Shown in pieces: positions 28,519 through 64,000 of a stretch of 64,000 bases of DNA. The notes under the pieces were generated by a model. The model had not been told where the DNA came from, did no database searches, and saw only the letters and a list, made by a program, of their open reading frames with translations. The DNA comes from Salinivibrio sp. ES.052 (GTDB lineage Bacteria > Pseudomonadota > Gammaproteobacteria > Enterobacterales > Vibrionaceae): NCBI RefSeq assembly GCF_900141775.1, contig NZ_FSRI01000001.1:1768251-1832250 (forward strand). Direction: 5' to 3'. The translations under genes were made by a program, and so were the position numbers. The first letter of the stretch is position 1. Every line of letters begins with the position of its first letter.

Positions 28519-28667
28519 TGTGAGGAGAATTAAGCGGCACAGACATGGGGAATAGCTTTGTGTCAGGTAACGTTATCTCAGGTAGCTTTGGGGAGTTCGC
28601 TTTGGGGGAGGTTTATAGTAGCGGGAAAGTTTATAGTGTGTCCCGTCCTAATATAGGTTGACAGTTT

Positions 28668-29435
28668 TTAGGCCAGCTCCAGTAGCTGGCCTTTTTTATT
28701 ATGCACCTGATTGGGGGTTGCCATACTTAAACTTAGGTGCGGTCTCATTTCGTTGTATATCGCTATCGATTCTTTTACCAATATTTTAAGCTCTGTCAGT
28801 GTCTTACACCGGTACAGTAAAAACTCATGCTTCAGTATGCCATTGACTCTTTCCGCTAACGCGTTTTGGTAGCAATCATAACCATCCGTCATCGACGGCT
28901 GGATTTGACTCTCCTGTAGCGCACTCTGATAAACGGCTGAGCAGTATTGCGAACCTCGGTCTGAGTGATGTACCGCATTGCCGATATAGCGCTTATCTTT
29001 GACGGCCATTTTCAGCGCTTTCACTACATTGTCGACTTTCATATCTTCGCTAACGTGATGACCCACTATCTTGCGTGAGTTGGCATCGGTCACCAGTGAC
29101 AGATAGTGCACACCTTGGTCTGATTCAACATAAGTGATGTCGCTGACCAGTATATGCGCAGCATCATGCAGTCCGTCTTCTTTTAGCAGGTTAGGATGCT
29201 TCTTCATCCAGTGCTTACTACACGTAGTTTTTGTGTAGCTTTTCTTGGGTTTAACCAGTAAGCCTTCGCTTCTCAGATAGCTAAAAAACCCGTCTCGCCC
29301 TAGCTTAATTTCGTGTTCAACTAGCTTGGGCTTTACCAACGCGTAGAGCTTACGCGCCCCTAACCTCGGCATATACTTACGCCAGTATTGGACCCAGTCT
29401 CTGATGATTGATAGTTCAGCTCTTCGGCTTTCCAT
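28668..29435 (-). CDS. IS3-family transposase, OrfB (copy 1)
   Basis: Catalytic part of the transposase, with an integrase core. DDE residues are in LVSDITYVESDQGVHYLSLVTDANS (first Asp), HHSDRGSQYCSAVY (second Asp) and YQNALAERVNGILKHEFL (Glu). The 255-residue frame from ATG 29435 lacks the N-terminal HTH_21-like region, which is read in the same frame from further upstream. The functional product is probably the OrfAB fusion made by -1 slippage at 29552-29546, giving about 409 residues. Ends 29 bases inside the IS right end. Confidence 0.9.
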   Translation of the reverse strand: MESRRAELSIIRDWVQYWRKYMPRLGARKLYALVKPKLVEHEIKLGRDGFFSYLRSEGLLVKPKKSYTKTTCSKHWMKKHPNLLKEDGLHDAAHILVSDITYVESDQGVHYLSLVTDANSRKIVGHHVSEDMKVDNVVKALKMAVKDKRYIGNAVHHSDRGSQYCSAVYQSALQESQIQPSMTDGYDCYQNALAERVNGILKHEFLLYRCKTLTELKILVKESIAIYNEMRPHLSLSMATPNQVHNKKGQLLELA

Positions 29436-29500
29436 TCGAGCAACGGCTTGATAGACACCTTGCCGAGAAATGCCTGTGGCACGACATGCCGCCGCTAACT

Positions 29501-29896
29501 TTATTTTACTTTTGGCTTTGGCTTGCCAGATGTACCGGATAAGTACTTTTTTCTGAGGCCGGCTCCGTACTCATTGTCCATGATATCGACCATACCATTG
29601 AGGATTTGGTTACGCAGTTTCTCTTCGGCTAACTCACGCTCAAGGCGCTTGATAGTTTCGGATGGGGTTTCTTTTGAATGTGGCATAAGGGGATGCTGAA
29701 ATGGCTTCGACCAATCGAGTCTACCATGTTTTCTGAGCCAGACGAGTACCGTTGAGCGGCCCTGAATGCCAAAACGGGCTTGAGCTTGTTTGTACGTCAT
29801 TTCGCCTTTTTCAACACGCTCTACAACGCCTAATTTAAAGGCTAAGGTGTAATCACGTTGCGTGCGCTTACGGCTTGAATTACTTGATGTTGTCAT
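29501..29896 (-). CDS. IS3-family OrfA, helix-turn-helix protein (copy 1)
   Basis: 131-residue DNA-binding protein of IS3-type elements. Residues 14-60 (RDYTLAFKLGVVERVEKGEM, TYKQAQARFGIQGRSTVLVW) form the helix-turn-helix that binds the terminal repeats. Residues about 85-112 form a leucine-zipper-like helix (IKRLERELAEEKLRNQILNGM). The A AAA AAG heptamer near the 3' end is in the correct phase for -1 frameshifting into orfB. Identical to the orfA of copy 2. Confidence 0.92.
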   Translation of the reverse strand: MTTSSNSSRKRTQRDYTLAFKLGVVERVEKGEMTYKQAQARFGIQGRSTVLVWLRKHGRLDWSKPFQHPLMPHSKETPSETIKRLERELAEEKLRNQILNGMVDIMDNEYGAGLRKKYLSGTSGKPKPKVK

Positions 29897-29944
29897 AAAG
29901 AAGTCCTCTTTATGTCAACGTATTTCAGGACGGGACAGTGCGAT

Positions 29945-29976
29945 TAAAAAAGCCCGTCCTGTCGGACGGGCTTTTT
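29945..29976 (-). terminator. Intrinsic terminator of the rpsP-rimM-trmD-rplS operon
   Basis: AGCCCGTCC/GGACGGGCT with a four-base loop; six T follow on the minus strand. The IS target duplication starts four bases beyond it. Confidence 0.92.
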
Positions 29977-36022: not shown

Positions 36023-38611
36023 TCATGACAACGGGGTGTGTTCCATTTGCTTTAGGTGGCGTAGAGCCTCTATAAAGCTGGCTTCTTTGATAGGCTTTAC
36101 AATTACGTAATTAGCACCGGCCCGGTAAAAGGCCTCATGTACGCTACCATAGGCATCGGCCGTGCACGCATAGATAGGAACACTAAGGCCAAGCGTTTCA
36201 CGAATCGCCCGCGTTGCCTCGACACCACCAAGGTTGGGCATATGGTTGTCCATCAATACCAGGTCATAGTGAGCGTGATCAAGGCTAGCCAAGGCTTGCT
36301 CACCGTCTTTTACCCACTCCACATCAATATGGTATTTATGACAAAACGCTTGGGCGACCATGGCATTAATTTTGTTATCTTCCACCAATAAAACCCGCTC
36401 AATACCGAGTAAGGCAGGATCAAAGGGCTCCTCCTCGGGGGCTTTTTCCGGCTTTTCATCAACCAGGGTGAGTGGTACGTCAACCACAAAATGGCTACCT
36501 TTTTCAGGCTCACTGGTGACGTCAATCTCACCTTCCAGCAAGTCTAATAGGCTTTTGACAATAGAGAGGCCCAGCCCGCTCCCTCCATAAGTACGCGTGA
36601 CACTGGAATCTGCCTGTACAAAGGGGTCAAATAAGGATTCAAGCGCCTGTTGGTTCATTCCCACCCCTGTATCGCTCACTTCAAAGCGCAATATTGATGG
36701 TCGATGAGTATGCTGAGGATCCTCATTTTTTGTCTCACGTTGATTCAGGGTAACGGTTAATCCCACTTGTCCCACATGCGTGAACTTAATCGCATTACTC
36801 ATCAGATTAAAAAGGATTTGAGTTAGGCGTGATTGATCCGAACGCACCATGGTATCAGCAGCAATCGGTGCATCGATATTGAGCGAAATATGCTTACTCT
36901 CACAAAGCGGGGTGTATATATTTTCCACCGTACGAATAATATCCAGCAGATAAAACTCACCGTACTCTATCGTCATTTTGCCTTGTTCTATTTTAGACAA
37001 ATCGAGAATATCATTCAGTACTGTCAGTAAGTGCTCACCACTTTGATACAAACTCCCCAAAAGCTCTTTTTGCGCCTTATCTTCAGCTCTATCGTTCAAT
37101 ATTTGGGTGATCCCCAAGATGCCATTAAGTGGGGTACGTATTTCATGGCTCATCTTGGCTAAGAACTCTGACTTCGCACGCGCAGAAGCTTCTGCTGCCT
37201 CTTTTGCTCGTTGACTTTGTTGCTCGGCTTCGATCAGTGAGGTGATTTCTTGGCCCTGGCCAATCACAGCTTTGACTTGATTATTCACCATCAAAGGCGC
37301 GAGGTTCCAGCGATAGACGCGGCGGTCAATATCAATGTTCACCCCTTTGAGGATGGTCCCATTAACGGCACGTTTTAAGTGGGGTGAAATCGCATACATA
37401 AACTGATCGTAAAGCCAGCTAGATGTATGTATTTGCTCATCGTAGTTGAGCTTAAGCTTCGCCGCCGGGTTGATACGAGTAATTTCAAAATCCGTATCCC
37501 AGACAATAATCGGTGACAGCGCGTAATCAAATAGGTCTTGCAATGAGCGCTCTTTTTCATACAGGGCATCAAAGGTCGACTCTAAGGTTTTACCGATATG
37601 GTTAAATTCTTCGATATCCGAGCCACCAAACGGCAAGGTACGTTGACGTGAGCGGGCTCCCTGGGTGTAACGCATAAGTTTATCGAGCGAGTCTGCAATT
37701 CGGGTTTTCACAAACCGGTTAACCCAAAAAGCCGCCACTATAATCACCAACGTGGTGAGTAATAAATTAATACCCATTTGTCGCTGTAACGCGATGACAT
37801 TGTCGTTGCGCTGGGCCGAGAGTAGCGAAATCTTAGATGGCTCCCCTGCGATACGTAACTTGACTTGACTGACTAAATAGTGCCTAAACGCTTGACTACT
37901 CTCTTCACTTGGCAAAGTCAGATCATTACCAATATCATCATTGCCACTCAGAGTGGATGCTAACGTCACATTGTCCGCCGAGAGCCACACGGCTTGCGTA
38001 CCACTAGCACGCTGTAGGCTTTTAACAAAGGAGAAGTTACCATTGAGCATGACCACCACATACAAGTAGCCGCCTAACTTACCGTTTGCCTGAAAGACGA
38101 TAGGCGTTTTTCGCATTAACAGGTAGCTTTGCTCCATGTCGGTGGTCATGGTCGTCAGTGTCCAGCGATTAATCGCTCGCAGTTGAAGGCGAAGCCGCTC
38201 TAAGTCTGCACTATCAATGCCGTGAAACAGACTACTACCATCATGCCAAAGGACGCGATCGTCCTTGGCAATAAAGCGAAAATCTGGGGTGTTCGCCACG
38301 TCTTGCTGCTCTTGCTCAATAAAATAATCATCAAGTGCGTAGCTGTCTTCACTGTTGACCAGCGATTGCAGTGTCATGCTGGCGGCATTCGTATTTTGGT
38401 GTATTTGTAGGGAAGTTAAACGGCTATCAAACACGTTTTGCAGTAAGCGAGAAGTCTGGGTCAAAGTACGGGTGATCTCTTGGTTAATCCCGGCCAACGT
38501 AAGTTGGTAACTTTGAATATAAACCCCCACAGTCACAAACAAGAAAAAGACCACGATTAAGCGGGTCAGTAATTGCGACAGTGATAACTTAGGTGAACCA
38601 GAGAGGGGCAT
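36023..38611 (-). CDS. luxQ: AI-2 hybrid sensor kinase/phosphatase LuxQ
   Basis: Inner-membrane hybrid kinase that works with periplasmic LuxP in autoinducer-2 sensing and feeds LuxU-LuxO. TM1 about 14-35, periplasmic PAS-like sensor about 40-280, TM2 about 281-298, HAMP-like/PAS region about 300-460. Kinase: phosphoacceptor His489 in KMSHEIRTPLNG, N box near Asn606, DTGVGM at 647-652, GGSGLGL at 676-682. Receiver domain (about 738-855) with VLLVEDNKINA and phosphoacceptor Asp788 in LVLMDNHMP. No HPt domain, as expected for LuxQ. 862 residues (about 859 in V. harveyi). Three bases separate it from luxP. Confidence 0.94.
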   Translation of the reverse strand: MPLSGSPKLSLSQLLTRLIVVFFLFVTVGVYIQSYQLTLAGINQEITRTLTQTSRLLQNVFDSRLTSLQIHQNTNAASMTLQSLVNSEDSYALDDYFIEQEQQDVANTPDFRFIAKDDRVLWHDGSSLFHGIDSADLERLRLQLRAINRWTLTTMTTDMEQSYLLMRKTPIVFQANGKLGGYLYVVVMLNGNFSFVKSLQRASGTQAVWLSADNVTLASTLSGNDDIGNDLTLPSEESSQAFRHYLVSQVKLRIAGEPSKISLLSAQRNDNVIALQRQMGINLLLTTLVIIVAAFWVNRFVKTRIADSLDKLMRYTQGARSRQRTLPFGGSDIEEFNHIGKTLESTFDALYEKERSLQDLFDYALSPIIVWDTDFEITRINPAAKLKLNYDEQIHTSSWLYDQFMYAISPHLKRAVNGTILKGVNIDIDRRVYRWNLAPLMVNNQVKAVIGQGQEITSLIEAEQQSQRAKEAAEASARAKSEFLAKMSHEIRTPLNGILGITQILNDRAEDKAQKELLGSLYQSGEHLLTVLNDILDLSKIEQGKMTIEYGEFYLLDIIRTVENIYTPLCESKHISLNIDAPIAADTMVRSDQSRLTQILFNLMSNAIKFTHVGQVGLTVTLNQRETKNEDPQHTHRPSILRFEVSDTGVGMNQQALESLFDPFVQADSSVTRTYGGSGLGLSIVKSLLDLLEGEIDVTSEPEKGSHFVVDVPLTLVDEKPEKAPEEEPFDPALLGIERVLLVEDNKINAMVAQAFCHKYHIDVEWVKDGEQALASLDHAHYDLVLMDNHMPNLGGVEATRAIRETLGLSVPIYACTADAYGSVHEAFYRAGANYVIVKPIKEASFIEALRHLKQMEHTPLS

Positions 38612-50300: not shown

Positions 50301-50549
50301 TCAACGATGGCGTTGGCGGTACTGCTGAACAGCGACAGTGATCGCGGCAACGACATCGGGTGAAAGCGTGTCCGATGCAGATTGTGCTTTAGGTTGAGGG
50401 ATCGCTTTAGTAGCGGTTGGCGGGGTCGGATCACCAAAACGTTCCAGTTGGCGAACCAAGAAAATTAAAATAGAGAGAAAGACAAACACGACAGCCATGC
50501 CAGTCAGCATCAACATCAGTGCCTGTTCTAAAAGTGGGCCTAAATCCAT
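50301..50549 (-). CDS. oadG: Oxaloacetate decarboxylase gamma subunit
   Basis: Small membrane-anchored subunit that assembles alpha with beta and binds Zn through its C-terminus. One membrane segment (about 8-30; MLMLTGMAVVFVFLSILIFLV) and a Pro/Ala-rich linker, then SPDVVAAITVAVQQYRQRHR. The start is set at ATG 50549 because AAGGAAG precedes it (82 residues); the frame is open eight codons further. First gene of the operon; a promoter candidate is 100 bases upstream. Confidence 0.9.
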   Translation of the reverse strand: MDLGPLLEQALMLMLTGMAVVFVFLSILIFLVRQLERFGDPTPPTATKAIPQPKAQSASDTLSPDVVAAITVAVQQYRQRHR

Positions 50550-51082
50550 GGTTATCTTCCTTGTTACACTCACTCTTGCTTACAACGAAGCGGTGATTAC
50601 CACTGTTATTATCTGTTTATCTTGGTGGCAAATTCATCATCGGCGTTCAAAATACTAACAATTCGCATAAATGACAATCTGGCGTTACGTTTTTGTTACC
50701 TTACAACGCCCGTTTTTAGGCGATTATTCTCGTTTATTTGTTGTAATAACCGTGTGCGTGTTTATGCAAAAACAGCGTCGCCCTGTACGGTGGTGACAGC
50801 GTTGACACCTATGCGTGTGATGGACAGTTCACGATTGGCGAGATGCACACTATGCCATCTTTGGAAAAAGCATTTTTCCGTCATCAACATTTGCCGAGAT
50901 AAGAAGATACGAGGGGACTGATAGCCGGTAAAGCGAGAATAATGCGATTATATGATCAATGTAACGCGTCAAATCACTCGAAGCGTAAAAATATCACGAA
51001 GACTAACGTCCACCAGACATCATCTAGACGTTATAAAAAGAAAGGGAAACTAAAAACAATGATTGAGGAGAGGATGCAAAAA
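50550..51082. other. Intergenic region between oadG and the tRNA cluster
   Basis: About 530 bases with no credible gene. It holds the promoter of oadGAB (50649-50677) in its first half. The part from about 50800 to 51080 is without recognisable features apart from being downstream of the tRNA operon. Confidence 0.5.
50649..50677 (-). promoter_or_regulatory. Candidate oadGAB promoter
   Basis: Minus strand TTGTCA (50677-50672), 17 bases, TATTTT (50654-50649), about 100 bases before the oadG start. Confidence 0.45.
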
Positions 51083-51159
51083 TGGCGCGTCCGGGAGGAT
51101 TCGAACCTCCGACCGCCTGGTTCGTAGCCAGGTACTCTATCCAGCTGAGCTACGGACGC
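51083..51159 (-). tRNA. tRNA-Arg (ACG)
   Basis: 77 bases on the minus strand including the encoded CCA. Acceptor GCGTCCG/CGGACGC, anticodon loop CTACGAA with anticodon ACG, T-arm GGTTCGAATCC. Last of six tRNA genes in one operon. ACG is the I34-type arginine tRNA, matching argV/Y/Z/Q by csrA in E. coli. Confidence 0.98.
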
Positions 51160-51185
51160 GCTGACAGATTTGCATTGATTGAAGA

Positions 51186-51262
51186 TGGCGCGCTCGGGAG
51201 GATTCGAACCTCCGACCGCCTGGTTCGTAGCCAGGTACTCTATCCAGCTGAGCTACGAGCGC
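51186..51262 (-). tRNA. tRNA-Arg (ACG), variant acceptor stem
   Basis: Same as the other copies except the acceptor, which is GCGCTCG/CGAGCGC: two base pairs are exchanged with compensation on both strands. Anticodon ACG; CCA encoded. Confidence 0.98.
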
Positions 51263-51316
51263 GTGTCGTCAATCTATGTTCGTCCTGAACAATGTTGCGG
51301 GTCTTCCGTGAAATGA

Positions 51317-51393
51317 TGGCGCGTCCGGGAGGATTCGAACCTCCGACCGCCTGGTTCGTAGCCAGGTACTCTATCCAGCTGAGCTACGGACGC
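51317..51393 (-). tRNA. tRNA-Arg (ACG)
   Basis: Identical in sequence to the copy at 51083-51159. CCA encoded. Confidence 0.98.
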
Positions 51394-51423
51394 ACATCTT
51401 GTACAAGGCAGGCTTGTAATCAA

Positions 51424-51516
51424 TGGCGGTGAGGGAGGGATTCGAACCCTCGATACGGCTACAAACCGTATACTCCCTTAGCAGGGGAGCGCCTTCAGCC
51501 ACTCGGCCACCTCACC
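51424..51516 (-). tRNA. tRNA-Ser (GCT)
   Basis: 93 bases with a long variable arm, as expected for a class II tRNA. Acceptor GGTGAGG/CCTCACC, anticodon GCT in CTGCTAA, T-arm GGTTCGAATCC. CCA encoded. Matches serV beside the arg tRNAs in E. coli. Confidence 0.98.
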
Positions 51517-51524
51517 GCAAGTAG

Positions 51525-51601
51525 TGGCGCGTCCGGGAGGATTCGAACCTCCGACCGCCTGGTTCGTAGCCAGGTACTCTATCCAGCTGAGCTACGGACG
51601 C
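51525..51601 (-). tRNA. tRNA-Arg (ACG)
   Basis: Fourth arginine copy, same acceptor as 51083-51159. It stands between the two serine tRNA genes. CCA encoded. Confidence 0.98.
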
Positions 51602-51625
51602 GCATCTATCTTGCTTGCAACAACA

Positions 51626-51718
51626 TGGCGGTGAGGGAGGGATTCGAACCCTCGATACGGCTACAAACCGTATACTCCCTTAGCAGGGGAGCGCCTTCAG
51701 CCACTCGGCCACCTCACC
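51626..51718 (-). tRNA. tRNA-Ser (GCT)
   Basis: First gene of the tRNA operon and apparently identical to 51424-51516. CCA encoded. A near-consensus promoter lies 16-44 bases upstream. Confidence 0.98.
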
Positions 51719-57507: not shown

Positions 57508-60087
57508 GTGACAGTACAAGCGCTCGAAAAGCACACGCCCATGATGCAACAATATCTCAAACTAAAAGCTCAGCATCCTGAAGAGCTGCTGTTTTATCGT
57601 ATGGGGGATTTTTACGAACTCTTTTACGACGATGCGAAACGTGCCTCTCAGCTTCTGGATATCTCGCTGACAAAACGCGGCAGTTCTGGTGGTGAGCCGA
57701 TCCCAATGGCAGGTGTGCCGTTTCACGCGGTGGAAGGCTATTTAGCTAAGCTCGTACAGCTTGGTGAACCTGCCGCTATCTGTGAGCAGATTGGGGATCC
57801 CGCCACAAGCAAAGGCCCCGTTGAACGACAAGTGGTACGTATCGTCACCCCTGGAACCGTATCAGATGAAGCATTATTGAGTGAGCGGGTGGATAATTTG
57901 GTCGCAGCGCTAACCTGCGATAAAGCGCGTTTTGGCTTTGCCACACTGGATATCACTTCCGGTCGCTTTGTGCTCACCGAACCGGCCACGCTTGAGCAGA
58001 TGCAGGCGGAGTTGCAACGCACTCAGCCTGCTGAGCTGCTTTATCCTGAGGATTTCCCTTACCCCGACTTACTGTCGGTCTGCAGAGGGGCTCGCCGCCG
58101 CCCCATTTGGGAGTTTGATCTCGATACCGCACGCAGTCAGCTTACCAGCCAATTTGGCACCCGTGATTTGGTAGGATTTGGCGTCGAGGATTGTCCGATC
58201 GGTCTTAGTGCGGCTGGCTGTGTCTTGCAATACGCTAAAGAAACCCAGCGTACCGCATTGCCTCATATTCGTGCCATCATCAAAGATCAACAAGATACGT
58301 CGGTGGTGTTAGATGCCGCGACCCGTCGCAACTTAGAAATCACGCAGAACCTGTCCGGTGGTAGTGACAATACCCTAGCCGAAGTACTGGACCGTACGAC
58401 AACACCGATGGGCAGTCGCTTACTGAAACGGTGGCTCCACCAGCCACTTCGCGATCGTCGAGTGCTCAACCAGCGCTTAGATGCTATCGATGCCTTATTG
58501 GAAAGCGGTTTGTTTACTGATTTGAGTACCGCGCTTCATCCCGTGGGCGATATTGAGCGCGTCCTGGCTCGCCTAGCGATGCGATCAGCACGTCCACGTG
58601 ATATGGCAAGACTGCGCACCGCGCTTGCACAATTACCCGACATTCAAACCCTATTAGCTGAACTCGATCACATTGCGTTTGCCGATCACCAAACCGCCAC
58701 CACACCAATGCCTGAGCTGCTAGATTTGCTCACCCGTGCCGTGGTAGACAATCCGCCAGTCGTGATCCGCGATGGCGGCGTCATCGCGCCAGGTTATCAT
58801 GCGGAACTGGATGAGTGGCGCGACCTCTCGGAAGGGGCTTCACGCTACCTGGAAGAGCTAGAGCTCCGAGAGCGCGAACAATACGGTATCGACACGCTGA
58901 AAGTCGGCTATAACCAGGTGCATGGCTTTTATATTCAAATCAGTCGCGCGCAAAGTGATCGGGTGCCTGCGCACTATATTCGCCGTCAAACACTCAAAAA
59001 CGCAGAGCGCTACATTATCCCTGAGTTAAAAGAACACGAGGATAAAGTATTAAGCTCTCGGTCAAATGCTTTGGCACTCGAAAAACGCCTATGGGAAGAA
59101 TTGTTTGATCAATTGCTCCCACACCTCGCGCAATTGCAGCAGGCATCAGAGTCATTGTCAGCACTAGATGTGCTGTGTAACCTCGCCGAACGCGCTGACA
59201 CGCTTAACTACCACCGCCCCACCTTGGTCGAACAACCCGGGATCCATATCGAGGCTGGCCGCCACCCAGTCGTTGAGCAGGTGATGACTGACCCTTTTAT
59301 TCCCAACCCAATAGCATTAGCCCCTGAACGACGGATGTTAATCATCACTGGGCCAAACATGGGTGGTAAATCCACCTATATGCGCCAAACCGCGTTGATT
59401 ACGTTGTTAAGCCATATTGGCGCCTACGTCCCGGCAGAGTCTGCAACCATAGGCCCTGTGGATCGTATATTTACCCGTATTGGCGCGTCTGATGACCTCG
59501 CCTCTGGCCGCTCCACGTTTATGGTCGAAATGACGGAAACGGCCAATATTCTTCATAATGCTACCGCCCATAGTTTAGTATTGATGGACGAAATTGGCCG
59601 TGGCACCAGCACCTATGACGGTCTGTCGCTAGCCTGGGCCAGTGCTGAATGGTTAGCAGAAAAGATCCACGCAATGACGCTGTTTGCCACTCACTATTTC
59701 GAGCTCACCGAACTCCCTGGGCAAATGGAAGGTTTGGTCAATGTCCACCTAGATGCCATGGAGCATGGCGATGAGATTGCCTTTATGCACGCCGTTCAAG
59801 AAGGCGCGGCCAGCAAGTCTTATGGTCTAGCGGTTGCCAGTTTAGCCGGCGTACCGAAACCCGTTATTCGTCGCGCTAAACACAAATTGAACCAATTGGA
59901 ACGCAGTGGCCAGCACACATTGAATACTGAGCCCAAACACGATGACAGAGCGCCAGCCCAATTGCCATTACTGTCTGAGCCAAGCGAGCTAGACAACGCG
60001 GTCGATGCATTGACGCCAGATGAAATGACCCCTCGCCAAGCCTTAGATGCGCTTTACGCCCTCAAAGCTTTGCAACAATCTCGCTAA
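57508..60087 (+). CDS. mutS: DNA mismatch repair protein MutS
   Basis: Mismatch recognition ATPase. Domain I (about 1-125) with the mismatch-contact Phe-x-Glu region in [21 protein letters not shown]; domains II-III; clamp (IV) region [25 protein letters not shown]; ATPase (about 560-800) with Walker [10 protein letters not shown] at 615-623, [21 protein letters not shown] and [11 protein letters not shown]-terminal dimer tail ([11 protein letters not shown]). 859 residues. Start GTG at 57508 with AGGT before it. Intact, so a hypermutator phenotype from mutS is not indicated. Confidence 0.97.
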
Positions 60088-60120
60088 TCGACCAGGCCCG
60101 GCAACATCATGGCTACAAAC

Positions 60121-60153
60121 AAAAAGGGACAGCAAACGCTGTCCCTTCTTTTT
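60121..60153. terminator. Bidirectional terminator between mutS and rpoS
   Basis: AAGGGACAGC/GCTGTCCCTT with an AAAC loop; T-rich on the plus side and A-run giving T on the minus side. About 40 bases beyond the mutS stop and 47 beyond the rpoS stop. Confidence 0.85.
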
Positions 60154-60329
60154 CATCGGTTAATTAATCCACGCCTACTCAGCGAAATTGATATGTTGCT
60201 TACTGTTCAACGTTAAAGAGCGATTCGATGCTTAATCCTTGATGAGTCAGCATATCACGCAAACGGCGCAAGCCTTCAACTTGAATTTTGTCCCGTCCTG
60301 AAATACGTTGACATAAAGAGGACTTCTTT

Positions 60330-60725
60330 ATGACAACATCAAGTAATTCAAGCCGTAAGCGCACGCAACGTGATTACACCTTAGCCTTTAAATTAGGCGT
60401 TGTAGAGCGTGTTGAAAAAGGCGAAATGACGTACAAACAAGCTCAAGCCCGTTTTGGCATTCAGGGCCGCTCAACGGTACTCGTCTGGCTCAGAAAACAT
60501 GGTAGACTCGATTGGTCGAAGCCATTTCAGCATCCCCTTATGCCACATTCAAAAGAAACCCCATCCGAAACTATCAAGCGCCTTGAGCGTGAGTTAGCCG
60601 AAGAGAAACTGCGTAACCAAATCCTCAATGGTATGGTCGATATCATGGACAATGAGTACGGAGCCGGCCTCAGAAAAAAGTACTTATCCGGTACATCTGG
60701 CAAGCCAAAGCCAAAAGTAAAATAA
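60330..60725 (+). CDS. IS3-family OrfA, helix-turn-helix protein (copy 2)
   Basis: 131 residues, identical to the copy 1 OrfA. The helix-turn-helix lies at about residues 14-60 and a leucine-zipper-like helix at about 85-112. The frameshift heptamer A AAA AAG is at 60674-60680, with codons AAA (60675) and AAG (60678) in frame 0, the usual arrangement for IS3-type -1 slippage. Confidence 0.92.
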   Translation: MTTSSNSSRKRTQRDYTLAFKLGVVERVEKGEMTYKQAQARFGIQGRSTVLVWLRKHGRLDWSKPFQHPLMPHSKETPSETIKRLERELAEEKLRNQILNGMVDIMDNEYGAGLRKKYLSGTSGKPKPKVK

Positions 60726-60790
60726 AGTTAGCGGCGGCATGTCGTGCCACAGGCATTTCTCGGCAAGGTGTCTATCAAGCCGTTGCTCGA

Positions 60791-61558
60791 ATGGAAAGCC
60801 GAAGAGCTGAACTATCAATCATCAGAGACTGGGTCCAATACTGGCGTAAGTATATGCCGAGGTTAGGGGCGCGTAAGCTCTACGCGTTGGTAAAGCCCAA
60901 GCTAGTTGAACACGAAATTAAGCTAGGGCGAGACGGGTTTTTTAGCTATCTGAGAAGCGAAGGCTTACTGGTTAAACCCAAGAAAAGCTACACAAAAACT
61001 ACGTGTAGTAAGCACTGGATGAAGAAGCATCCTAACCTGCTAAAAGAAGACGGACTGCATGATGCTGCGCATATACTGGTCAGCGACATCACTTATGTTG
61101 AATCAGACCAAGGTGTGCACTATCTGTCACTGGTGACCGATGCCAACTCACGCAAGATAGTGGGTCATCACGTTAGCGAAGATATGAAAGTCGACAATGT
61201 AGTGAAAGCGCTGAAAATGGCCGTCAAAGATAAGCGCTATATCGGCAATGCGGTACATCACTCAGACCGAGGTTCGCAATACTGCTCAGCCGTTTATCAG
61301 AGTGCGCTACAGGAGAGTCAAATCCAGCCGTCGATGACGGATGGTTATGATTGCTACCAAAACGCGTTAGCGGAAAGAGTCAATGGCATACTGAAGCATG
61401 AGTTTTTACTGTACCGGTGTAAGACACTGACAGAGCTTAAAATATTGGTAAAAGAATCGATAGCGATATACAACGAAATGAGACCGCACCTAAGTTTAAG
61501 TATGGCAACCCCCAATCAGGTGCATAATAAAAAAGGCCAGCTACTGGAGCTGGCCTAA
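60791..61558 (+). CDS. IS3-family transposase, OrfB (copy 2)
   Basis: 255 residues from ATG, identical to copy 1 OrfB. DDE residues are present. After -1 slippage at 60674-60680 translation continues directly in this frame (KVLIRYIWQAKAK onward) up to the ATG at 60791, giving an OrfAB fusion of about 409 residues. No internal stop, so the transposase looks functional. Confidence 0.92.
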   Translation: MESRRAELSIIRDWVQYWRKYMPRLGARKLYALVKPKLVEHEIKLGRDGFFSYLRSEGLLVKPKKSYTKTTCSKHWMKKHPNLLKEDGLHDAAHILVSDITYVESDQGVHYLSLVTDANSRKIVGHHVSEDMKVDNVVKALKMAVKDKRYIGNAVHHSDRGSQYCSAVYQSALQESQIQPSMTDGYDCYQNALAERVNGILKHEFLLYRCKTLTELKILVKESIAIYNEMRPHLSLSMATPNQVHNKKGQLLELA

Positions 61559-62581
61559 AAACTGTCAACCTATATTAGGACGGGACATTTGACGAACACG
61601 CTCACGTGTCAAACCAATTTCACGACCCACATCTTCGAGGGTTGAAGCCTCATGACCTAGCAGCCCAAAACGACGCGACAACACCTCACGCTGCTTAGGA
61701 TTTAGCTCTTGTAACCACTGAACAATCGATTTTTTCATGTCATCGTCTTGCGTGGTGTACTCAGGGCCGTCTTGCTTCTCATCAGGAATAATATCCAATA
61801 GTGCTTTTTCTGAGTCACCACCAATAGGATTATCCACTGAACCTATCCGCTCATTGAGACGAAGCATACGGTTCACATCTTCTACCGGCTTATCAAGCTG
61901 AGCCGCAATGTCTTCAGCCGTCGGTTCATGATCAAGCTTTTGCGCCAATTCACGGGCAGTACGTAGGTATACATTTAACTCTTTGACCACATGGATCGGT
62001 AAGCGAATGGTACGTGTTTGATTCATGATGGCGCGTTCAATGGTTTGGCGGATCCACCACGTCGCATAGGTTGAGAAACGGAAACCACGCTCTGGGTCAA
62101 ACTTCTCGACCGCGCGGATCAGGCCAAGGTTACCCTCTTCAACCAGATCTAACAGCGCCAGACCACGATTGGAATAACGACGGGAAATTTTCACCACCAA
62201 GCGGAGGTTGCTCTCAATCATACGCTTGCGAGCCACTTCGTCACCACGCAAAGCTCGGCGCGCGTACAGTACCTCTTCTTCCGCAGTTAGGAGCGGTGAA
62301 AAACCAATTTCACTCAGGTAAAGTTGGGTGGCATCTGAAGCCTTTGAGGTGGCCGCTTGTTGCTGAACAGCCTCCTCGACTTCTTCGACCACTTCTTCAG
62401 CTTGAGAACGCGCCTCAACGGTGTCGAACTCCACGTCTTGATTCAAGCCGTCCAGTCTCTTTGCGGTATTTGTTTGGCTCATAGCGCCTCCCTTATGACG
62501 TAGCAGCAAAGCAGAATTCGTTTCTGCTTTCACCGGCCCCGTCACATTGTGGCTGCGCGATATCACCTTGGTTTCCCTGTG

Positions 62582-63517
62582 CTACCGCTTTGGCAGATAA
62601 TGCAACGGATTGACCGATTTTCCTTTGTAGCGAATTTCAAAATGCAACCGAACACTGTTTGCACCAGAACTGCCCATTGAAGCTATTTTTTGCCCCTTTT
62701 TGACAGTACGGCCTTCTGAAACATAGAACCTATCGTTGTGCGCATAAGCACTCAGATAATCATCATTGTGTTTCACTATTATTAATTTACCGTAACCTCG
62801 AAGTGCGCTTCCGGCGTACACGACTTTACCATCCGCCGCCGCCTGAATACCCTGTCCTCGTTGTCCAGCAATATCTATGCCCTTATTGCCTCGCTCTGTG
62901 CTAGAAAATCGGGACACCATCCGGCCTCTTGTTGGCCATTGCCAGCTTATCTGTTGGTTCGATGAGCTCGCGGTCCGCTTGTTAACATTTTTTTTACTTT
63001 TTGCTTTAGTTTGACTGTACCCCGACGAAGTCCCCGATTCAACGCTTTTTGTGCGTTCAGTCGCGGTTTTTGACTTATTTTTCTCCTCAAATTTGCTAAG
63101 TTCAGCGCTTTTTCTAGAAGATGCTGCTACTACACTTGCGCTTGCAGCCGAATTTGTAGCTGAGGCCACAGAAGCGGCACTTGATGCCGGTGTCGACACC
63201 AGAGAAGAAGAGCTCGATGTCGACGTCGCCACATCAGGACGCTGGTAGGCGGGCTTCCACAATGCTAGCGTCTGCCCGGGATAGATGGTGTAGGGGCGCT
63301 GTAAATCATTATGCTCGATGATGTCGTCGATATCGCGATCAGTGATGTAGGCGATGTAATAGAGGGTATCGCCCTTTTTCACTTCGTAATAACTGCCGCG
63401 ATAGCTGCCTCTATCAACGCTGGTATAATCGGGGGTCACACTAGATACCGGTGCCGGCCCTCGCCAGGAGCAACCAGATAAAAAAACTAGTAGTGACAGA
63501 AAAAACGCGATTTTCAT
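62582..63517 (-). CDS. nlpD: NlpD, LysM/LytM amidase activator lipoprotein
   Basis: Outer-membrane lipoprotein that activates the septal amidase AmiC during division. Start taken as ATG 63517: lipobox LSGC gives Cys16; the frame extends upstream without a signal sequence. LysM domain (about 44-90; YEVKKGDTLYYIAYITDRD, PYTIYPGQTLALWKP), long Ser/Ala-rich linker (about 95-185), C-terminal LytM domain with NKGIDIAGQRGQGIQAAADGKVVY and RLHFEIRYKGKSVNPLHYLP. The zinc ligands of active M23 enzymes are replaced (Asn and Arg instead of His), as in true NlpD. Upstream of rpoS; in relatives the main rpoS promoter lies within nlpD. Confidence 0.94.
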   Translation of the reverse strand: MKIAFFLSLLVFLSGCSWRGPAPVSSVTPDYTSVDRGSYRGSYYEVKKGDTLYYIAYITDRDIDDIIEHNDLQRPYTIYPGQTLALWKPAYQRPDVATSTSSSSSLVSTPASSAASVASATNSAASASVVAASSRKSAELSKFEEKNKSKTATERTKSVESGTSSGYSQTKAKSKKNVNKRTASSSNQQISWQWPTRGRMVSRFSSTERGNKGIDIAGQRGQGIQAAADGKVVYAGSALRGYGKLIIVKHNDDYLSAYAHNDRFYVSEGRTVKKGQKIASMGSSGANSVRLHFEIRYKGKSVNPLHYLPKR

Positions 63518-63551
63518 CTGTTTTAAAATACAGCTCCATCTCTGAGGCAGT

Positions 63552-64000
63552 TTATGCCAGCTCACCCGCAACAAGGGGAACAAATTTAACCGATTCAACT
63601 GTCTCGGTATGGAAAGCGGTTCCCTGGCGCGTGACCTTCATCAACGCTTGATCAGTATCGCCAATCGGGATAAGCATCACTCCGCCTTCATTCAGTTGAT
63701 CACACAACGCCTCGGGTATCGTCGTCGCGGCAGCAGTCACCATGATGGCGTCATACGGACCTTTCGTTGGCCAACCTTGCCAGCCATCGCCGTGTTTGGT
63801 CGACACGTTATAAATATCCAATTGTTTTAAGCGTCGTTTGGCTAGCATTTGTAGTTGCTTGATCCGCTCGACAGAGTAAACATGATCCACCAAATTAGCG
63901 AGGATCGCCGTTTGATAACCGGAGCCCGTCCCAATTTCTAAAATGCGACTATCGCGTTGCAAATTGAGAAGTGATGTCATCTTAGCCACAATATAAGGTT
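63552..64000 (-). CDS. pcm: Protein-L-isoaspartate O-methyltransferase, partial
   Basis: C-terminal part; the frame continues to the window edge (PYIVAKMT read from the last bases), so the start is outside. SAM-dependent repair of L-isoaspartyl residues in aged proteins. [27 protein letters not shown] is the SAM-binding motif I with the acidic motif II, then [25 protein letters not shown] and LIPIG. About 35 bases before nlpD on the same strand, the usual surE-pcm-nlpD-rpoS order. Confidence 0.95.

Follow-up and report, generated by a model that had tools for sequence, protein, structure and literature searches.

The window analysed here, 64,000 nucleotides of Salinivibrio sp. ES.052 from an assembly of 3.57 Mb in 6 contigs, contains rpoS within the gene order mutS / rpoS / nlpD / pcm, the three neighbours being presumptive names given from gene order. 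The coding sequence of sigma-S is split after codon 298 of 326 by an element of the IS3 family (Table 1). The original prediction had placed an insertion sequence in region 4.2 after RVRQ, with a perfect TTT duplication, 28 intact codons on its far side and 1302 bp in all. This was borne out in each part: 298 native codons run directly into the element, which at 1299 bp makes up 1302 bp with the 3-bp TTT.

Table 1. Positions of the features of the rpoS locus and of the inserted element within the window
Feature	Position	Strand	Basis or remark
Terminator-like hairpin between mutS and rpoS, GGGACAGC-AAAC-GCTGTCCC with A and T runs	60121..60153		Read in sequence; not used by the element
rpoS 3' remnant, 28 codons and stop, detached from the 5' part	60200..60286	minus	Translation
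Weak terminator look-alike GGC-GCAA-GCC-TT in the usual target register	60265..60276	+ (rpoS antisense strand)	GCC at -17..-15, TT at -14,-13
Target duplication TTT	left 60286-60288, right 61588-61590		Sequence
IS3-family element, 1299 bp	60289..61587	+	Terminal repeats, profile searches, duplication
OrfA, 131 aa, HTH_28	60330..60725	+	Profile search
AAAAAAG (A6G) heptamer, presumed -1 frameshift site OrfA/OrfB	60674..60680	+	Sequence
OrfB, rve (DDE) transposase domain, 255 aa from ATG, 300-codon open frame	60791..61558	+	Profile search
Built-in terminator-like hairpin and T-run against antisense transcription entering the right end	61529..61555	minus	Sequence
Truncated sigma-S tail, seven codons MSRPNIG and stop (stop 61565-61567)	61565..61588	minus	Nearly all element-encoded
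rpoS 5' part, 298 native codons	61589..62482	minus	Start ATG 62482, ends LTRERVRQ
Another copy of the element, identical and intergenic; its left end faces a terminator-like hairpin at ~29946-29976	28639..29937	minus	Sequence

The open part of the gene scores above the thresholds of two RpoS profiles, NF004207 (493.7 bits vs a cut-off of 394) and TIGR02394 (437.7 vs 378.7 bits). Region 4 is incomplete, as Pfam PF04545 covers profile positions 1-40 of 50 and the last 28 native residues are missing. Alignment to E. coli RpoS (6omf) puts the break directly past RERVRQ, a point that we take to lie within the recognition helix of region 4.2. In the MSRPNIG tail, the opening base comes from the TTT duplication and all else from the element, and the predicted truncated sigma-S has 305 residues (298 native and 7 added).

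Because the rest of the recognition helix and the tail are lost, the activity of the protein is most likely abolished or strongly cut, and the truncated sigma-S is most likely non-functional or nearly so. Partial function is the main alternative, though an unlikely one, in which the protein would still bind core polymerase and serve promoters free of a -35 contact, as a hypomorph or with altered specificity. Sigma factors that lack region 4.2 can act at extended -10 promoters, and regions 1.2 to 4.1 are kept together with RERVRQ, the initial portion of the recognition helix; a stable short message is also plausible, since the break is directly followed by a stop codon and then a hairpin of terminator form. 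Against this, the protein lacks the distal half of the recognition helix and the entire C-terminal tail (28 residues), and far more is missing from the other broken alleles in the genus, an indication that loss was selected.

A search of the whole genome with the RpoS model retrieved no backup RpoS over the cut-off. The sub-cut-off matches were confined to two frames of 634 and 287 codons, taken for RpoD and RpoH from their lengths. The strain had been called a probable RpoS-null; the probable loss of function and the lack of a second RpoS stand, and that the null would be complete is our reading of the lesion.

The inserted element bears the ends of an IS3-type transposon, with TG..CA terminal repeats (60289-60313 and 61563-61587; 25 nt, 88% complementary) and a short target duplication. 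OrfB scores 217.7 bits against the IS3 model NF033516 (cut-off 160), and OrfA alone reaches 44.4 bits, below that cut-off. The annotation 'programmed frameshift' is given by NCBI in four E. coli relatives. The element in rpoS looks intact, and profile scans of it recovered the rve transposase and no reverse transcriptase. The terminator-like hairpin ~50 nt inside its right end was also present in 19 of 21 genomes tested at one copy per genome, in addition to the rpoS element. No near DNA match to the element was found in plasmid records, and OrfB-like proteins occur in 94 phage records, all at less than 60% identity.

Twenty-one complete copies of the element are present in this genome, along with three partial copies at the ends of contigs. 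Six of the 20 copies examined, the rpoS copy among them, are identical, and the others differ by 2-3 bases. Three contigs of the assembly end inside copies of the element, and the rpoS break might then be an assembly artefact at a repeat. We consider this very improbable: a perfect 3-bp duplication flanks 20 of the 20 copies examined (of 21 complete), which fits real transposition rather than a misjoin, and at rpoS the duplication is likewise perfect and the two parts of the gene are in register.

The copies are not distributed at random with respect to transcription signals. A common rule was applied to all insertion sites, namely a stem score of at least 10, T at three or more of the following five positions and a distance of 8-24 nt from the element. 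The left end in rpoS fails; of the others, 20/21 passed in this genome, 4/5 in the sister species G003 and 52/59 in other Vibrionaceae, so that 76 of the 85 pooled left ends other than rpoS have a terminator-like site. Under the same rule, 1/84 right ends passed, these serving as an intergenic control, and 118/5000 random sites taken from the whole window. Terminal repeats and duplication served to pick the element ends in the relatives, and terminators played no part in that choice. One locus with the element at a contig start and ends not found (L256) was left out of the rule, intragenic and matrix counts, and two with the right flank only (L159 and L154) likewise.

The left flanks of the 20 non-rpoS complete copies share a fixed register, with T at -14 in 20/20, T at -13 in 19/20 and G at -17 in 19/20. 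A GC-rich stem of 6-9 bp with at most 1 mismatch ends at -15 in all 21 non-rpoS left ends (one of them a partial copy); in the relatives the stem end around -15 is more variable than in this genome. The hairpins of the 20 complete copies differ in sequence and most are followed by a T-run, which speaks against the targeting of one repeated REP palindrome in this genome. By form, these left-flank hairpins are intrinsic terminators, and the statistics of the insertion sites show that the element has a strong, oriented preference for them. Among surviving copies this preference is partly due to purifying selection, which contributes because fewer insertions survive in genes; register and orientation go beyond that explanation.

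Relatives of OrfB at E 1e-75 or better were found in 25 of the 324 Vibrionaceae genomes searched, including this one and G003, with at most 8 candidates scored per genome; 60 of the 62 relatives' copies on the resulting list were fetched. Beyond the family, 6 of 15 listed non-Vibrionaceae plasmid records with OrfB 51-64% identical were fetched, and all 6 agree with the terminator pattern, two of which need loops longer than 8 nt. A stem and T-run precede the left end of the copies in Pseudoalteromonas, Acinetobacter, Flavobacterium and Marinobacter; those in Enterobacter and Salmonella (ISSen1) fail with loops of at most 8 nt and pass with loops of at most 12. Among 7 fetched of 25 listed ISSen1-like records of E. 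coli, 4/7 have a terminator-like site (behind topA, at the rtT RNA twice at one site, and in ATCC 25922). No hairpin was seen at two others, one between integrase gene pieces (L268) and one beside transposase remains (L269). In the remaining record (L267), beside cgtA, the element lies behind a hairpin which we take to be a REP-like unit from its motif, a possible bridge within the IS3 family between the targeting of terminators and that of REP units.

On OrfB identity and ends, and with the terminator target in common, the element is placed within the ISSen1-like clade. A wider generalisation, which we regard as possible but somewhat less than even, is that this whole IS3 clade, from Vibrionaceae to Enterobacteriaceae and Flavobacterium, uses intrinsic terminators as landing sites, with the left end nearly always placed at a near-fixed distance downstream and the element insulated there; gene hits would be look-alike misses, kept when loss pays. 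The landing signal could be the hairpin in DNA or the terminating transcription complex.

Insertions inside genes, defined by at least 15 open codons on each side and at least 120 in all, could be sought in 81 testable copies for which a duplication and both flanks were available (the two Salinivibrio genomes contribute 26 and relatives 55); four relatives for which no duplication was found, L200, L207, L245 and L257, were excluded. Eight of the 81, rpoS included, lie inside long open frames. The rpoS copy is the only such case among the 21 complete copies of this genome. Two further copies fall outside the rule, L009 with 362 open codons on one side and 10 on the other, and L002 with 499 and 1; either could trim a gene end. 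The seven other intragenic copies (L218, L219, L221, L226, L202, L239 and L115) come from genomes G303, G144, G009, G220 and G003, and the genes struck in relatives include those for a GlgC/GlmU-like protein, a PmbA/TldD-like protease, a response regulator and another transposase.

Seven of the 8 intragenic sites have no terminator by the rule, and L221 passes at an odd distance of 22 nt. With a matrix built from 78 other sites and each intragenic site scored against its own flanks as background, 6/8 fall in the top 3.3% of matrix scores, rpoS with p 0.03; L239 (p 0.09) and L218 (p 0.42) are not significant, and the eight sites together give a combined p of 7.5e-8. At rpoS, GCC-TT stands in register behind a 3-bp stem. 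A stem as good as this occurs in 15.8% of random sites, 2.2-4.8% of window positions score as high as the rpoS site (three matrices), and 26, 52 or 71 of 1848 positions within rpoS itself are as good or better (three matrices). A strong terminator mimic in rpoS was rejected, the site being a weak one. Because the look-alike is weak, a plain miss that no mimic guided is also possible.

Plain chance would take this further: a burst of the mobile element struck rpoS with neither selection nor target mimicry. We hold this to be improbable. It would agree with the 21 complete, nearly identical copies, with off-target copies that strike varied genes in relatives and with the weakness of the look-alike; but the sole copy well inside a gene (1/21 complete) is in rpoS, which is also broken in 3/7 sister species by unrelated lesions.

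Across the genus, rpoS is broken in 4 of the 8 Salinivibrio species examined, by four different lesions. Besides the insertion in this genome (G000), G006 has a 7-bp tandem duplication (GACCGCT), G002 has one additional A within an A-run, and G001 has a deletion of ~2.75 kb from mutS into pcm, by which the end of mutS, rpoS and nlpD are gone. Its junction (L148:8752-8753, syntenic to window 59806-63889) has ~4 bp of shared sequence. The gene is complete in G003, G004, G005 and G007.

In the family as a whole, 324/329 genomes have an RpoS match at 1e-60. A close look was taken at 19 of the 329, chosen by a poor best E-value, and breaks beyond residue 298 escape this count. Outside the genus, rpoS is broken in 9 clear to 15 possible of 321 genomes: it is split or absent in nine (G101, G143, G139, G133, G235, G215, G191, G030, G044), four are contig-edge or incomplete-genome cases (G103, G183, G087, G037) and two have a shortened gene (G193, G267); in four others (G112, G294, G186, G187) it is apparently whole. 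Fisher's test of 3/7 in the genus, this genome left out, vs 13/321 gives p 0.003 and vs 16/321 p 0.005, with counts that differ from the final 9 and 15. In G235 (L157, G235:C1:740000-745500) the gene is split near codon 160 by an insert that appears IS66-type from its translations. The IS3-family element described here was considered as a cause of this rpoS break and rejected, since G235 carries the IS66-type insert instead.

The original prediction had also stated that no other decay is seen and that the event is recent. Upstream of the lesions, 138 codons were compared among seven genomes with rpoS broken or whole; each of the 21 pairs has a dN/dS within 0-0.014, and pairs involving this genome show 1-3 nonsynonymous vs 63-75 synonymous differences, in agreement with both points. 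By this measure rpoS is under strong constraint even where it is broken. The breaks are therefore young, and the rpoS insertion itself is recent, because there is no decay in the 138 codons upstream of its break.

As a control for gene breaks in general, the genes of the syntenic stretch were tested against reference G005 or G003. With G005, 3/44 were flagged in G002 and 3/44 in G006; with G003, 2/44 and 4/44, respectively. After flags of a mechanical kind were set aside (a tRNA-cluster ORF, genes at piece edges, a 106-codon ORF near 50304-50570, and full-coverage stops from alternative starts), rpoS is the sole remaining flag in G002 and G006. The other counts with reference G005 are 7/40 for this window, 2/44 for G003 and 5/35 for G004; G005 itself has 3/44 with reference G003, one G007 piece has 4/8 and G001 has 6/11. 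With 6 of its 11 tested genes flagged broken, the assembly or genome of G001 is poor at this stretch, and its lesion, like that of G002 with one base in a homopolymer, could be a sequence error. Two further features of the window were noted. A row of six tRNA genes, four Arg(ACG) and two Ser(GCT), lies at 51083-51718, and an 862-codon gene at 36023-38611 is in two pieces in the sister genome G005 (850-862 codons).

The setting of rpoS loss may be nature or, more likely, culture and storage. In one study, the E. coli rpoS-null strains of a careful collection are traced to laboratory handling and are rare there (PMC3484664), and other papers describe selection of rpoS mutants in E. coli stabs and stored cultures (PMC3240573; also PMC7376263). 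A culture origin is likely here too because E. coli rpoS mutants arise in storage and are rare under careful handling. An origin of the Salinivibrio lesions in isolation and laboratory storage, not in nature, is somewhat favoured; this is compatible with our preferred explanation and agrees with the lack of decay besides the lesions in the tested segment and with the E. coli precedent.

Taken together, we consider it quite probable that a terminator-targeting IS3 element of the ISSen1-like clade inserted off-target at a weak look-alike in rpoS, and that the mutant persisted because losing rpoS has brought an advantage time and again, possibly in culture. In this mechanism the transposase or a host partner would recognise the junction of stem and T-tract, and the left end would be joined ~14 nt downstream of that junction. 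The host terminator on the left would shield the transposase gene from read-through, and the element's own right-end terminator would shield it from antisense transcription. In rpoS, this right-end terminator should end the rpoS message just past the new stop codon, and the product would be the 305-residue sigma-S lacking the end of region 4.2. The mutant clone may have persisted because RpoS loss is repeatedly favoured in the genus; selection for this loss is inferred from its recurrence.

An insertion sequence in rpoS is in itself an event of a known, ordinary kind. Less usual is a DDE transposon with oriented, spaced insertion behind intrinsic terminators. Intrinsic terminators are plentiful in such genomes, and terminator targeting would explain how 21 complete copies coexist with one clear gene break, a safe-harbour strategy that is known for group IIC introns. 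The choice of target becomes testable with mutated terminators, and the recurrent rpoS lesions are a natural experiment on the conditions under which a halophile can do without the general stress response. No DDE element that targets terminators was found in the literature searched, and the specificity may have been noted before, for instance in ISfinder or in subscription reviews; in the Aliivibrio salmonicida genome paper (PMC2627896), 'terminator' gave one unrelated match.

Among known systems, the closest are the ISSen1-like elements, ISSen1 being the name used by NCBI in Salmonella records, with E. coli copies 87-91% identical in DNA. They share with the present element the IS3 architecture, the programmed frameshift, the terminal repeats (TGACCCGTCCTGAA, against TGTCCCGTCCTGAA here), the 3-bp duplication and terminator-like hairpins at most left ends examined. 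They differ in an OrfB that is ~51% identical, in the absence of terminator targeting from the annotation examined, and in the E. coli copies, 2/7 of which have no hairpin and 1/7 of which lies at a REP-like one. IS1397 and ISKpn1 are also IS3-family elements that choose palindromic extragenic DNA (PMC1525189). Whereas these two target repeated REP sequences, the present element uses a different hairpin followed by T at nearly every site, with its left end downstream of the T-tract. The rpoS alleles of the E. coli collection and of long-term culture are likewise recent null lesions (PMC3484664, PMC3240573), but here the lesions are spread across species of a halophile genus, and one of them was made by a terminator-seeking element. 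Finally, Rho-independent terminators also mark the insertion sites of group IIC (bacterial class C) introns, which enter immediately downstream of them (PMC3522654); these introns are ribozyme retroelements, whereas the element described here is a DDE DNA transposon.
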